The translations under genes and the position numbers were made by a program. From contig NZ_JAPEPX010000002.1 in the NCBI RefSeq assembly GCF_026339935.1, forward strand, positions 41,328 through 105,327: a stretch of 64,000 nt of DNA, given 5' to 3'. Below, one piece after another: positions 11,739-21,720 of the stretch. The stretch's first letter is position 1; every line of letters starts with the position of its first letter. The stretch is from Streptomyces sp. NBC_01551 (GTDB lineage Bacteria > Actinomycetota > Actinomycetes > Streptomycetales > Streptomycetaceae). The notes beneath the pieces are model-generated. The model had not been told where the DNA came from and searched no databases. It saw only the letters and a list, made by a program, of their open reading frames with translations.

Positions 11739-13406
11739 TTGGCTGAATTACACGCTCCGCCTCACGGGGCGACGCGTCCCCAGTGGGACCCCCGACGGGA
11801 AGCATGCGCCCATGCCCTGACCATGACGGGTGAGAGGGTCGAGCGGAGCCTCACAGGACTACTCGAAGACGCCGATGGGCTGCGTGCCGTCGATGACACC
11901 ACCCCCGGCGCGACGGTCGCTCTCCTCGAGTACCTGCTGGCCATCTGCTACGCGTCGGGCACCTATCCGGCCACGGACACGGAGTGGCAGGACTGGGTGG
12001 AGCAGGGGCACTCGCTCGCTGAAGCCGCCAAGTGGCTCGCCGAGCAGCCCGACGGCGAGTGGGACCTCTTCCACCCCACCGAACCGCTCGGCCAGAACGC
12101 GCTCCTCGCCCCCTTCCTCGACCGGCACGGGGCAGGACCGGCCCAGCTGGTCATCGAGCGCGTCGGCGATTACAACCAGTTCTTCGACCACCACCACCTG
12201 GAGCACCCGACCCCGTTGCCCGCGGCCGAGGCGTTCCGGGCCATGCTCACCCAGCACGTGTACGCGCCCGCCGGGCGGGCGAGGATCTCCGGCAAGGAGA
12301 CCCTCGGCCCCACGATCACCAATCTCGCCATCGGCCGCCTCAGCAGCCGCATCCGGGTCGTCGCGCTCGGCTCCACGCTCGGTGAGACCCTGCGGCTCAA
12401 CCTCACGCCGTGTGCCGACGGACCGGGCGAGTTCAACCGCTCCTGGACCGCGGGAACGACGGAGCGCCGCGGCTTCCGCACGAAGCCGGACGGCCGGCCC
12501 GTGAGCGGTCCGGCGGACCTGCACAGCCACCTCGGCCGATCCATCCTGATGCGTCCGGCCGCTCTACCCGGGACCGGGGCCGGAACCGGGACCGGGACCG
12601 GAGCCGGAGCCGGAGCCAAGGAACCCGCCGTCGACCGGGTGCTCGTCGGCGCCGGCGAGCTGCTCGCGCTCCGGCGCCCCCAGCTCCAGGACGTCGTCTA
12701 CGCCAGCACGGCCGAGGGCAAGACGAAACCCCTCTGGGCATCGGCGTCCCGCGCCTTCTGGCGCGACGCGCACGCGCTGTACGCCGCGGTCAAGGACGCG
12801 CGGCGGCCGGACGACGCCCGCCAGAGCGTGAACCTCTACGAGAGGCTGGCCCGGTTCCCGGGTCCGGACGACCCCCACGGCCCGGACAGCCCGCCCGTGC
12901 GCGGAATCAAGCTGTGGGCGGTGGGTCTCGTCGCCAAGCAGACCACGGCCATCACCTGGGTCTCGGGCGTCTACCCCTTCGCCCCGGGCCTGGGCGCGAC
13001 GCTGCACCGCGCGTCGAAGGGGGGTTCGGAGATCGCCGAGTACGTCGCGACGAGCCTGGGCAAGGCCGCCTACGCGGCGTGGGAGATCGCCTATCCGAAC
13101 CCGAAGCCGTCCGACAAGGCCGGCCAGATCGCCCGCTTCGACGTCCGGTGGCAGCACTGGGAGGCGGCCGAGGACCCGTTCAACCTCCTGCTGGAGAGGA
13201 CGGCCTCGGGCGAGCAGGTCGACGAGTGCCTCCTCGACTACGCCTCCACACTCGCCTCAAACGCCGCCGAGTTCCTCGCCAAGAGCCTCGACTCGCTCCC
13301 GAGGAACTCCCGGGGTTTCCAGGCCCGCGCCGCGGCACGCCGGCGATTCGAGAGCGAGCTGGCGAGCCGAAAGGCTCCCGCCCAACTTCAAGGGGAGGAC
13401 GCATGA
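11739..13406 (+). CDS. cas8e: Cas8e (Cse1/CasA), large subunit of type I-E Cascade
   Basis: The 555-aa product follows the Cse1 plan: the ALLEYLLAICYASG helix, the WDLFHPTEPLGQ segment, the central metal/loop region and the C-terminal helical bundle ending near NAAEFLAKSLDSLP. In Cascade this subunit checks the PAM and, in the classical system, recruits Cas3 to the R-loop. The usual N-terminal ~20 residues of the family (DLL..PWIPV-like) are not seen in this frame. The listed TTG 11739 has no strong ribosome-binding site and ATG 11823 is an alternative. A Gly-Thr-Ala-rich linker sits near residue 285. First gene of a five-gene operon with four overlapping junctions. No cas3 precedes it. Confidence 0.88.
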   Translation: MAELHAPPHGATRPQWDPRREACAHALTMTGERVERSLTGLLEDADGLRAVDDTTPGATVALLEYLLAICYASGTYPATDTEWQDWVEQGHSLAEAAKWLAEQPDGEWDLFHPTEPLGQNALLAPFLDRHGAGPAQLVIERVGDYNQFFDHHHLEHPTPLPAAEAFRAMLTQHVYAPAGRARISGKETLGPTITNLAIGRLSSRIRVVALGSTLGETLRLNLTPCADGPGEFNRSWTAGTTERRGFRTKPDGRPVSGPADLHSHLGRSILMRPAALPGTGAGTGTGTGAGAGAKEPAVDRVLVGAGELLALRRPQLQDVVYASTAEGKTKPLWASASRAFWRDAHALYAAVKDARRPDDARQSVNLYERLARFPGPDDPHGPDSPPVRGIKLWAVGLVAKQTTAITWVSGVYPFAPGLGATLHRASKGGSEIAEYVATSLGKAAYAAWEIAYPNPKPSDKAGQIARFDVRWQHWEAAEDPFNLLLERTASGEQVDECLLDYASTLASNAAEFLAKSLDSLPRNSRGFQARAAARRRFESELASRKAPAQLQGEDA

Positions 13407-14035
13407 GCACGGAGGCCAACACCTCCTACGAGGAACCGGGCGGAGCGCCCGCGTCCGACGGCGAAGCAGGTGCCCACCACGCGTGGGAGGCAGCCGAACC
13501 CAGCGAGCGCCTGACGGCCTGGCTCACCTCGCTCGTGCGCAACCGGGAGTACGGGCAGCTCGCGGACCTGCGCCGGCCGCGCGTACGGACGAACACCCAC
13601 ATCCGGGCCGGCTGGTTCGACCCGGAACAGCGCGAGGTGTTCGAGCAGGTGGCTTTCCTGTTCGCCCTCTACCACCGCGGCACCTCCAAGCCCTCCTACG
13701 GTGTCGGCAGTCTCGGTGCGGCGACGCGCAGGATCGGCAGCGCTGTCGGCCGCGGCCCCAAGGACCCCGGAGCCGTCCGTCTGATCGACCGGATCGTCTC
13801 CAGCCGCCGCATCCCCTGGCGCCATCTCCAGCACGCGGTCGCCCGACTGCGCTCCTGTGATCAGGCCCCGCCGTCCTGGACGAGGCTCGCGGAGGACCTC
13901 AGCCGGTGGAACGACCGCAAGGCCGGGATCGCCGACCAGTGGGCCGTGGACTTCCACGCGCCGCCCATCCCGTCCCGCGCCGCCGGGAAGAGCGCAAAGA
14001 CCGCCGACACCACCCAGAAGGGCACCACCAAGTGA
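13403..14035 (+). CDS. cas11: Cas11e (Cse2/CasB), small subunit of Cascade
   Basis: A 210-aa helical protein of the Cse2 family. It contains LADLRRPRVRTNTHIRAGW-like and VAFLFALYHRG motifs, and R-rich helices (IDRIVSSRRIPWRHLQHAVA) that would line the non-target strand. ATG 13403 overlaps the cas8e stop as ATGA and follows AGGGGAGGACGC. The C-terminal tail is lysine/threonine-rich and disordered. Two copies per Cascade are expected. Confidence 0.88.
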   Translation: MSTEANTSYEEPGGAPASDGEAGAHHAWEAAEPSERLTAWLTSLVRNREYGQLADLRRPRVRTNTHIRAGWFDPEQREVFEQVAFLFALYHRGTSKPSYGVGSLGAATRRIGSAVGRGPKDPGAVRLIDRIVSSRRIPWRHLQHAVARLRSCDQAPPSWTRLAEDLSRWNDRKAGIADQWAVDFHAPPIPSRAAGKSAKTADTTQKGTTK

Positions 14036-21189: not shown

Positions 21190-21300
21190 GCCCCCTCCTC
21201 AGCGTCACTCCCGCTATCGTTCTGGTGAGCATGACAGAACACCCCTTAGCATGCAGGCGAGTTGAGCCCTGTAGCGCCAGGAACGGAGGAGTTCCCCAAC
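21190..21300. promoter_or_regulatory. Divergent promoter region of the protease-STAND and Trypco1 genes
   Basis: The 111-base gap separates two divergent starts, each with a strong ribosome-binding site (GAGGAGGGG on the minus strand, GGAGGAG on the plus strand). It must therefore carry both promoters, favouring co-regulation of the pair. No operator could be defined by eye. Confidence 0.5.
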
Positions 21301-21720
21301 ATGCCCGAACTGATCGAGATGCATCTGGACGAGGGTGGCAGCGTCTGGGTGGAGGTTTCGGATGGCCTCCCTGTGATCGATCGCGTGGGCAGGGGCGAGG
21401 ACGCCCTGCGCTCGACCGCCCGAACGCTGCAGGACGCCCTGTCCCGCGTCCGCCCGGCGGTCGACGCGGTCGTGGACCAACTGCGTTCCGCAGCTCTCCC
21501 TCCGGACGAGGTGAATGTCCAATTCGGGATCAAGATCACCGCGGAGGCGGGGGCCGTGATCGCCAAGGCGGCTACGGAGGCCAACTTCACCGTCTCGGCT
21601 ACTTGGGTGAGTGAGCGGAGCATGGGCAGAGGTGCCAGTTCGGCAGGGGCGGCCAATGCAGCCGACGAGGAAGCACCGCTTGCTGCCCCTCCGTCGCCCC
21701 GCGGCGCCCAGAACCCCTGA
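21301..21720 (+). CDS. Trypco1-type (CU044_2847-like) partner of the trypsin-STAND protein
   Basis: A 139-aa protein starting at ATG 21301 nine bases after GGAGGAG. The pattern of an N-terminal beta-rich half (MPELIEMHLDEGGSVWVEVS), a central helix and a second strand pair (VNVQFGIKITAEAGAVIAKA, followed by NFTVSATW) matches the trypsin-co-occurring domain 1 family, small proteins encoded beside trypsin/STAND genes in bacterial conflict systems. The Ala/Pro-rich tail is likely disordered. Divergent from the protease gene, with a shared promoter region. Probably a regulator, substrate or adaptor of the protease; which one is unknown. Confidence 0.75.
   Translation: MPELIEMHLDEGGSVWVEVSDGLPVIDRVGRGEDALRSTARTLQDALSRVRPAVDAVVDQLRSAALPPDEVNVQFGIKITAEAGAVIAKAATEANFTVSATWVSERSMGRGASSAGAANAADEEAPLAAPPSPRGAQNP

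Follow-up and report, generated by a model that had tools for sequence, protein, structure and literature searches.

A type I-E Cascade without detected Cas1 or Cas3 in Streptomyces sp. NBC_01551 and its conserved STAND_TPR and membrane-protein partner genes

We analysed a 64,000-nucleotide (nt) stretch of DNA from Streptomyces sp. NBC_01551 (hereafter, the window), which makes up the end of the 105-kb contig C2. The assembly consists of 28 contigs with 7.05 Mb in total and is 98.6% complete. The window encodes the five subunits of a type I-E Cascade, the effector complex of a clustered regularly interspaced short palindromic repeats (CRISPR) system, together with a STAND_TPR protein and a small predicted membrane protein. 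The original prediction, made from the letters of the sequence without database searches, had coupled this Cascade to a protease gene on its other side; the start of the STAND_TPR gene lies about 3.9 kb upstream of the window cas8e, beyond the coordinates first reported (11739–21720). The genes concerned are as follows.

4169–7960, minus strand: STAND_TPR, 1263 amino acids (aa), with an XRE-type helix-turn-helix (HTH), a STAND nucleoside triphosphatase (NTPase), and helical tetratricopeptide repeat (TPR)-like repeats (PADLOC STAND_TPR, E-value 1.7e-286)
7961–8146, no strand: divergent STAND/membrane promoter region with CCGGA-type inverted repeats, which are also present in the relative L082
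8147–8326, plus strand: small predicted membrane protein, 59 aa, divergent from the STAND gene (PADLOC Unk_04, E-value 3.1e-28)
11739 (TTG) or, more likely, 11823 (ATG; a gene-model choice) to 13406, plus strand: cas8e/cse1 (CRISPR_Cse1, 204 bits)
13403–14035, plus strand: cse2/cas11 (Pfam)
14032–15411, plus strand: cas7 (Pfam)
15411–16253, plus strand: cas5 (Pfam)
16250–16972, plus strand: cas6e (Pfam)

The Cascade genes (cas8e-cse2-cas7-cas5-cas6e, 11.7–17.0 kb) are all open and form one operon with overlaps of 1–4 nt, and all five proteins passed the Pfam cut-offs, bearing out the earlier description of an intact, overlapping five-gene operon. NCBIfam shows the proteins to be divergent: Cas8e was unmatched, and Cas7 and Cas6e fell under the cut-off. 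The original prediction had also seen no cas3, cas1, or cas2 in the window. For the first two genes, this held across the whole assembly, where profile searches returned zero matches to Cas1 and nothing above the cas3_core cut-off (top score 32.1 bits versus 102.45); thus, the intact cas3 elsewhere that might have completed the system was not detected in the 7.05 Mb. Cas2 was searched for only in the surroundings of the locus and was not seen there. The Cas3-like C-terminal family gave a single match (27.5 bits, cut-off 27) in the same helicase frame of contig C1 as the top cas3_core hit; because this family also matches in 14 of 14 control genomes, the match was read as another helicase.

PADLOC labels STAND_TPR as a "Predicted ATPase fused to Xre-HTH and TPR repeats domain, associated with cas1-less I-E system in Streptomyces" and Unk_04 as an "I-E associated membrane protein, same context as STAND NTPase". 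The hydropathy peak of the 59-aa protein is 1.59, which is borderline for a membrane helix. We compared two overlapping sets of loci with Cas8e relatives, 25 from 392 genus-sample genomes and 62 named from GTDB species genomes, and clustering of their predicted genes returned a recurrent protein of about 1250 aa with a divergent protein of about 59 aa. The STAND gene lies next to Cascade in 46 of the 62 named relatives (38 upstream and 8 downstream) and is accompanied by the membrane gene in 44 of the 62; the carrier genera are Streptomyces, Actinacidiphila, Actinomadura, Nocardiopsis, and Allonocardiopsis. Among the 16 relatives without the STAND gene, 13 have Cas3, 2 have a reduced HD domain, and 1 (L134) has none of these. 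The flanks covered at least 5 kb past cas6e in 53 of the 62 loci and at least 5 kb before cas8e in 60 of the 62, and a few absences could reflect short contigs. From gene content and position, the conserved and apparently true partner of this Cascade is the STAND_TPR gene (4169–7960) with the membrane gene, upstream of Cascade.

The ratio of nonsynonymous to synonymous substitution rates (dN/dS) between the window and its closest relative, Streptomyces goshikiensis JCM 4640 (L082; 90% Cas8e identity), was 0.35 for the STAND gene, 0.05 for the membrane gene, and 0.19–0.25 for cas8e, cas7, cas5, and cas6e; cse2 was left out, the L082 cse2 gene being mispredicted. Across 32 aligned STAND sequences, Gly174 and the DGLD Walker B motif were invariant (32/32), and Lys175 was present in at least 90%. 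A structure model of the first 640 residues comprised the HTH, the STAND NTPase core, and helical repeats, with a predicted local distance difference test score (pLDDT) of 82 and a predicted template modelling score (pTM) of 0.45. Its PDB matches below an E-value of 0.001 were SAMD9 (1.6e−5) and MalT (1.9e−4), followed at about 0.003–0.007 by ORC/Cdc6, CED-4, Dark, and AVAST5.

The window also holds at least six short I-E-type mini-arrays with a period of about 61 nt; one of them and a lone repeat flank an insertion between the membrane gene and cas8e.

8411–11313, no strand: insertion of about 2.6–2.9 kb without continuous L082 homology (colinearity break)
8672–8700, plus strand: lone degenerate repeat left of the insertion, like the L082 plus-strand array (repeat scan)
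About 8900–9553, minus strand: DUF1326 gene, in the insertion (Pfam)
9762–10589, plus strand: PpoB2 gene, in the insertion (Pfam)
11342–11553, minus strand: mini-array of 4 degenerate repeats with a 61-nt period, its diverged spacers common to L082 (repeat scan)
28442–28654, plus strand: mini-array of 4 repeats, its third spacer matching a phage endolysin gene (repeat scan)
31432–31581, plus strand: mini-array of 3 repeats (repeat scan)
38600–38689, plus strand: mini-array of 2 near-consensus repeats (repeat scan)
39668–39818, plus strand: mini-array of 3 repeats (repeat scan)
56281–56431, plus strand: mini-array of 3 degenerate repeats (repeat scan)

The window and L082 are colinear over 4166–8410 and 11314–17013, with no colinearity past 17013. 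The repeats flanking the insertion (8672; 11342–11553) have L082 counterparts, and two spacers are common to both genomes, with 2 of 32 positions changed in each; because of this correspondence, the insertion can be placed inside an inherited array region. By this alignment, the STAND pair of the window is split from Cascade by the insertion. A relaxed repeat pattern found 18 sites genome-wide, 15 in the window and 3 lone two-mismatch sites on C1, whereas the reversed-pattern control found none across the genome. Near the contig end, nine in-register repeat copies spaced 126 nt apart (62586–63893) lie over a long open frame.

The accessible portion of PMC8730458 states that derived I-E loci of this kind have no array, whereas arrays were found in the window and, as arrays of at least three repeats in the stretches examined, in 18 of the 46 STAND loci (the window counted in and L084 left out). 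Within arrays, the repeats had a median identity of 0.80 in the STAND loci (55 arrays of at least four repeats). The Cas3-bearing members of the clade (20 arrays) gave 0.84 and canonical I-E gave 0.99 (31 arrays; some of the 14 loci sampled were arrayless). When the derived set was scanned in reversed sequence, 3 arrays appeared. Because the Cas3-bearing loci of the clade also reach only 0.84, repeat heterogeneity is a trait of the clade, not an effect of Cas3 loss, and it would fit a state in which Cas1-Cas2 no longer copies the repeat. Selection on the repeat hairpins was considered and found no strong support, with 17 double Watson-Crick changes over six stem pairs in 534 distinct repeats versus about 9.6 from shuffles.

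To identify targets, the array stretches of six Cas3-less relatives and of a canonical control (L071) were searched against 50,697 phage records. For the STAND-type locus of S. antibioticus (L123), all 10 matching records were Streptomyces phages; four distinct spacers matched SF3 (29/31), Success (27/29), ZL12 (32/32), and Gilgamesh (31/32), and AAG lay upstream of the protospacer in 4 of 4. AAG is the protospacer adjacent motif (PAM) given for the S. avermitilis I-E system in the accessible part of PMC4762764, and the frequency of the AA dinucleotide in the fetched phage stretches was 0.036. The STAND-type locus of S. hydrogenans (L092) gave 68 records (60 Streptomyces, 7 Microbacterium, and 1 Pseudomonas phages), with one spacer each matching Celia-group phages (28–29 bases; AAC upstream on a reading that extends the degenerate repeat by one base), PapayaSalad (28/30; AA not upstream), and Microbacterium phages (28/32; AAC upstream). 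The reduced-HD locus L093 gave 4 records (2 Streptomyces and 2 Erwinia phages), including a match to the OnionKnight terminase gene (29/32; AAC upstream). L096 and L087 had weak phage matches only, and neither L119 nor the canonical control had any match among the 50,697 records. Because the canonical control found no phage, such matching is no general gauge of activity. Two further matches were not counted as good: that of L093 to RosaAsantewaa, which was 4/32 once ungapped, and that of L096 to SV1 (26/38).

For the window itself, the third spacer of the 28442 array matched the endolysin genes of the Streptomyces phages Kromp and JustBecause (27/32, E-value 0.02, GAG upstream), and a neighbouring spacer of that array matched phiHau3 (27/32, AAC upstream) and Izzy (26/32, CGT upstream), with an E-value of 0.7. 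The three other window array stretches searched showed no clear phage spacer match. Separately, Saccharomonospora phage PIS 136 (JX006077.1, phage positions 12900–13047) gave several matches to window array stretches, hinting at an I-E-like array in the phage genome.

These observations bear on the possibility that Cascade and the STAND gene are the remains of a decayed I-E system and that the arrays and the linkage are passive leftovers. The lack of detected Cas1 and Cas3 in the genome, the degenerate repeats, the insertion within the array region, and the weak stem covariation are all in keeping with such a relic. Against it stand the open frames and the purifying selection between the window and L082, the STAND linkage in 46 of 62 relatives from several families, and the 32/32 and 31/32 phage matches with an I-E PAM in a genome without detected Cas1 or Cas3. 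On balance, we regard a relic as unlikely.

A nuclease-less Cascade might alternatively act as an RNA-guided repressor, silencing phage or host genes by CRISPR interference or by a CreTA-like control of the STAND and membrane genes, with the STAND protein as a guard freed when Cascade fails. CreTA works with CRISPR RNA (crRNA)-like RNAs, which the degenerate repeats of these loci resemble in a setting that also lacks a nuclease, and a mini-array does lie between the membrane gene and cas8e in both the window and L082. However, none of the 526 spacers of 13 STAND loci matched its own locus at 80% or more, as was also the case for the control (0), and the mean best own-locus identity was 0.637 versus 0.631 in the control; a match of only an approximately 10-nt seed would escape this comparison. 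Self-regulation by own spacers was rejected on this result, and the repressor as a whole also has a low probability in our judgement.

Cas1 and Cas3 were surveyed in the genomes of 28 of the 62 relatives, mostly drafts. Cas1 was found in 11 of these carrier genomes and cas3_core above the cut-off in 13, that of L084 included; 12 of the 28 had neither. These twelve include both STAND carriers that have good phage matches, S. antibioticus and S. hydrogenans, in whose genomes no Cas1 was found and cas3_core never scored above 33 bits; two of the twelve show weaker Cas3-like matches (92 and 70 bits). Several carrier Cas1 genes score low with the Cas1 profile (about 27–30 bits), which also misses the split Cas1 of L094. 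Because most of the genomes are drafts and this profile is insensitive, the absence of Cas1 and Cas3 from carriers is not proven. Cascade could accordingly be thought to recruit a nuclease encoded elsewhere in the genome, the STAND protein being accessory. The 13 carriers with cas3_core and the presence of Cas3 beside the STAND gene in L084 speak for such recruitment in trans, but no Cas3 was detected in the assembly of the window, in S. antibioticus, or in S. hydrogenans, and the 12 genomes without a Cas1 match or an above-threshold cas3_core (with the two weaker hits among them) also count against it. We consider it quite improbable.

STAND proteins of this type switch in an NTP-dependent manner and assemble in response to a trigger, and for this reason we propose crRNA-guided, phage-DNA-bound Cascade as the trigger here. 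The reading towards which we lean, and which we consider somewhat probable, is that Cascade without detected Cas3 or Cas1, STAND_TPR, and the 59-aa membrane protein form an RNA-guided alarm against phages: once bound to its target, Cascade would activate the STAND protein, and the infected cell would be shut down or killed. In such a system, Cas6e would make the crRNAs, and Cascade would recognise an AAN-type PAM when binding phage DNA. The STAND helical repeats would be recruited to the Cas8e surface that serves canonical I-E for Cas3 recruitment, NTP-driven oligomerisation of the STAND protein would follow, and the small membrane protein would act as the executor or as its anchor. The HTH may keep the divergent STAND/membrane promoter repressed at rest, possibly through autoregulation at the inverted repeats in 7961–8146.

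Several points weigh against the alarm. The STAND model matches PDB entries only marginally (two under an E-value of 0.001; TM-scores of 0.2–0.4; pTM of 0.45), and ORC/Cdc6 and NSF-type AAA+ proteins are among them. The accessible text of a review states that there is no experimental evidence for the cell-death hypothesis. As for the guides, 28 of the 46 STAND loci had no array of at least three repeats in the examined stretch, and the degenerate repeats, with stem covariation barely above shuffles, may mean a poor supply of crRNAs. The six Cas3-less array stretches yielded good Streptomyces-phage matches in three cases, weak ones only in two, and none in one; some of the L092 and L093 matches are to phages that infect other hosts, one of the three L092 protospacers has no AA upstream, and the phage matches of the window itself are weak and only suggestive. 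Finally, some carriers encode Cas3 in trans (13 genomes are above the cas3_core cut-off, that of L084 among them).

The protease of the original prediction lies to the right of the Cascade operon.

17431–21189, minus strand: trypsin-nSTAND1-propeller protein, 1252 aa (nSTAND1, 308 bits)
21301–21720, plus strand: Trypco1, CU044_2847 family (Pfam)

The description of these genes proved sound. In the 1252-aa protein, H61, D111, and S186 (GFSG) are all in place and the nSTAND1 domain is clear, with the Trypsin_2 domain slightly below its cut-off (27.4 versus 27.6 bits), and Pfam recognises the gene beside it as Trypco1. PADLOC returned no match for either protein. The role assigned to them, in which the trypsin-nSTAND1-propeller protease and Trypco1 are switched on by the neighbouring Cascade once it is bound to its target, has in its favour their adjacency in the window, the triad residues, and the NTPase domain. 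The conserved co-occurrence expected from it was absent: a trypsin-STAND or Trypco1 gene adjoins Cascade in none of the 62 named relatives and in none of the 25 genus-sample loci, two of which give only nSTAND matches at 28–30% identity. In addition, 25 plasmid records carry a trypsin-STAND homologue at an E-value below 1e−60, and in 4 of 4 inspected, Trypco1 adjoins the trypsin-STAND gene with no cas8e, cas7, cas5, or cas6e match within the 12-kb stretch. Because L082 homology stops at 17013 and homology to L083 restarts at 22129, the pair sits in a variable slot. The palindrome TTTTGTCCGCGGACAAAA occurs in three perfect copies with differing flanks (16995–17012, 22135–22152, and 22526–22543; chance expectation 0), the first two of which enclose the trypsin-STAND/Trypco1 block; the copies could be either terminators or the borders of an exchangeable cassette.

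With its absence beside Cascade in relatives and the broken L082 colinearity, the trypsin-STAND gene was ruled out as the Cascade partner, and we hold the protease model to be extremely improbable. We judge the trypsin-STAND and Trypco1 genes to be an independent conflict module next door, in which Trypco1 would partner the trypsin-STAND protein and not Cascade. The more general idea of coupling between Cascade and a STAND protein stood, fitting both the conservation and the printed predictions cited below; the choice of partner did not. To the right of the block, a stretch with a ParB-like frame (22129–24643) has 83% DNA identity to L083, and the contig may be a plasmid or a chromosome arm.

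A Cas7 tree of 63 loci (midpoint root) placed the 47 STAND-bearing rows, the window included, in one clade with a Shimodaira–Hasegawa-like approximate likelihood ratio test (SH-aLRT) value of 99, and the reduced-HD loci and the Cas3-bearing L100 adjoin this clade. Inside it, L084 combines the STAND and membrane genes with a Cas3 of 1009 aa whose HD motifs are intact, and L087 and L113 retain Cas3 fragments. The simplest order is that the STAND gene joined first and Cas3 was lost afterwards, more than once; alternatively, L084 may have regained Cas3. In a tree of HD domains, the L084 Cas3 lies near that of L100, without firm support. L082 and L142 belong to one strain, S. goshikiensis JCM 4640, which has two Cascades: one is Cas3-less and STAND-linked, and the other, from the wider clade, is accompanied by Cas3.

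In the sister lineage (L047, L048, L093, and L105; L051 is probably the same as L093), Cas3 is reduced to 258–306 residues without a helicase. The tandem HD motif reads SR, and the aspartate of the SDW motif is S or G; the histidine of the first motif is E in three of the proteins, and in L105 it precedes the predicted start. Not all histidines are gone: L048, L093, and L105, for example, retain one of the HH pair. The structure model of the protein is nevertheless that of a Cas3 HD domain (pLDDT 82), with 4q2c and further Cas3 entries as its best matches; the protein scores 32.7 bits against Pfam Cas3_HD and has a dN/dS of 0.19–0.32. From its residues, the reduced domain is predicted to be catalytically dead. 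Beside it are an alpha/beta-hydrolase-like gene and a protein of about 1260–1500 aa with an AAA/STAND domain and WD40 repeats, at the N-terminus of which a putative caspase-like His/Cys motif was read by eye, with no profile match. In the L105 locus (S. acidiscabies), cas7 appears as two matches about 1.4 kb apart and looks interrupted by an insertion. Because a review, in its accessible part, places the Cas3 binding site on Cse1, it is a reasonable inference that the reduced HD domain serves as an adaptor between Cascade and the effector.

Taken jointly, these lineages tentatively suggest, with a likelihood that we put somewhat short of even, that in this actinobacterial I-E clade Cascade became the trigger of apoptosome-like receptors at least twice while the guides stayed directed at phages. 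In one case, the STAND_TPR/membrane pair would have joined while Cas3 was present and then displaced it; in the other, the caspase-like/STAND/WD40 protein and the alpha/beta hydrolase would be coupled through an adaptor, the HD domain, which is under purifying selection despite having lost its dyad and helicase.

A derived I-E system of Streptomyces without cas1 and cas3 but with a STAND NTPase and a small membrane protein has already been predicted in print (Shmakov 2018, as reported in the accessible parts of PMC12231136 and PMC8730458), and the tentative mention of such loci in the original prediction agrees with these sources and with PADLOC STAND_TPR. Judged by its sequence, the window belongs to this predicted, already described STAND-associated I-E type without cas1 and cas3, which it resembles in its five effector genes, its lack of detected Cas1 and Cas3, its XRE-HTH STAND_TPR, and its small membrane protein. 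It differs from the type as described in its mini-arrays, in the phage matches with a PAM among the spacers of its relatives, and in the separation of its STAND pair from Cascade by an insertion. With the canonical S. avermitilis I-E system, as given in the accessible part of PMC4762764, it shares the Cascade subunits and the 61-nt repeat period; the AAG PAM is seen in the relative L123, and the weak matches of the window itself have GAG, AAC, or CGT upstream. Unlike canonical I-E, the window has no detected Cas3, the signature gene, or Cas1, and the repeats of STAND loci are far less uniform (the medians of 0.80 versus 0.99 given above). The pairing of trypsin and Trypco1 is described for NTP-dependent conflict systems in the accessible part of Kaur 2020 (PMC7159879), and the 17.4–21.7 kb pair is like these Trypsin-Trypco systems; it adjoins the Cascade unit and is not part of it. 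I-E2 (Cas5-HNH) and I-F4 are Cas3-less type I variants according to the accessible part of PMC12669027. The window, too, has a type I Cascade without Cas3; unlike in I-E2, its Cas5 has no HNH domain, Pfam giving Cas5 only. Craspase is a type III-E CRISPR complex with a caspase-like peptidase. The caspase-like/STAND/WD40 protein of the sister lineage invites comparison with this union of a CRISPR complex and a peptidase, but the CRISPR type is another one and recognition of DNA instead of RNA would be expected. Literature searches, which were not all aimed at these points and did not cover the key papers of 2018 and 2020, found no report of the arrays, of phage-matching spacers with a PAM in genomes without Cas3, of the intermediate that has both Cas3 and STAND, or of the reduced-HD lineage.

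As regards the window, the original reading needs correcting: the eye-catching protease adjoins Cascade as a neighbour, and the partner that is conserved with Cascade falls beyond the coordinates first reported. Furthermore, the S. antibioticus spacers with AAG-flanked phage protospacers, in a genome without detected Cas1 or Cas3, make the hypothesis of an RNA-guided alarm accessible to plaque and growth assays. A path from a CRISPR nuclease to an immune receptor is suggested by the locus that has Cas3 as well as STAND and by the lineage whose HD domain is predicted to be dead; both also hint at where on Cascade the coupling may occur.

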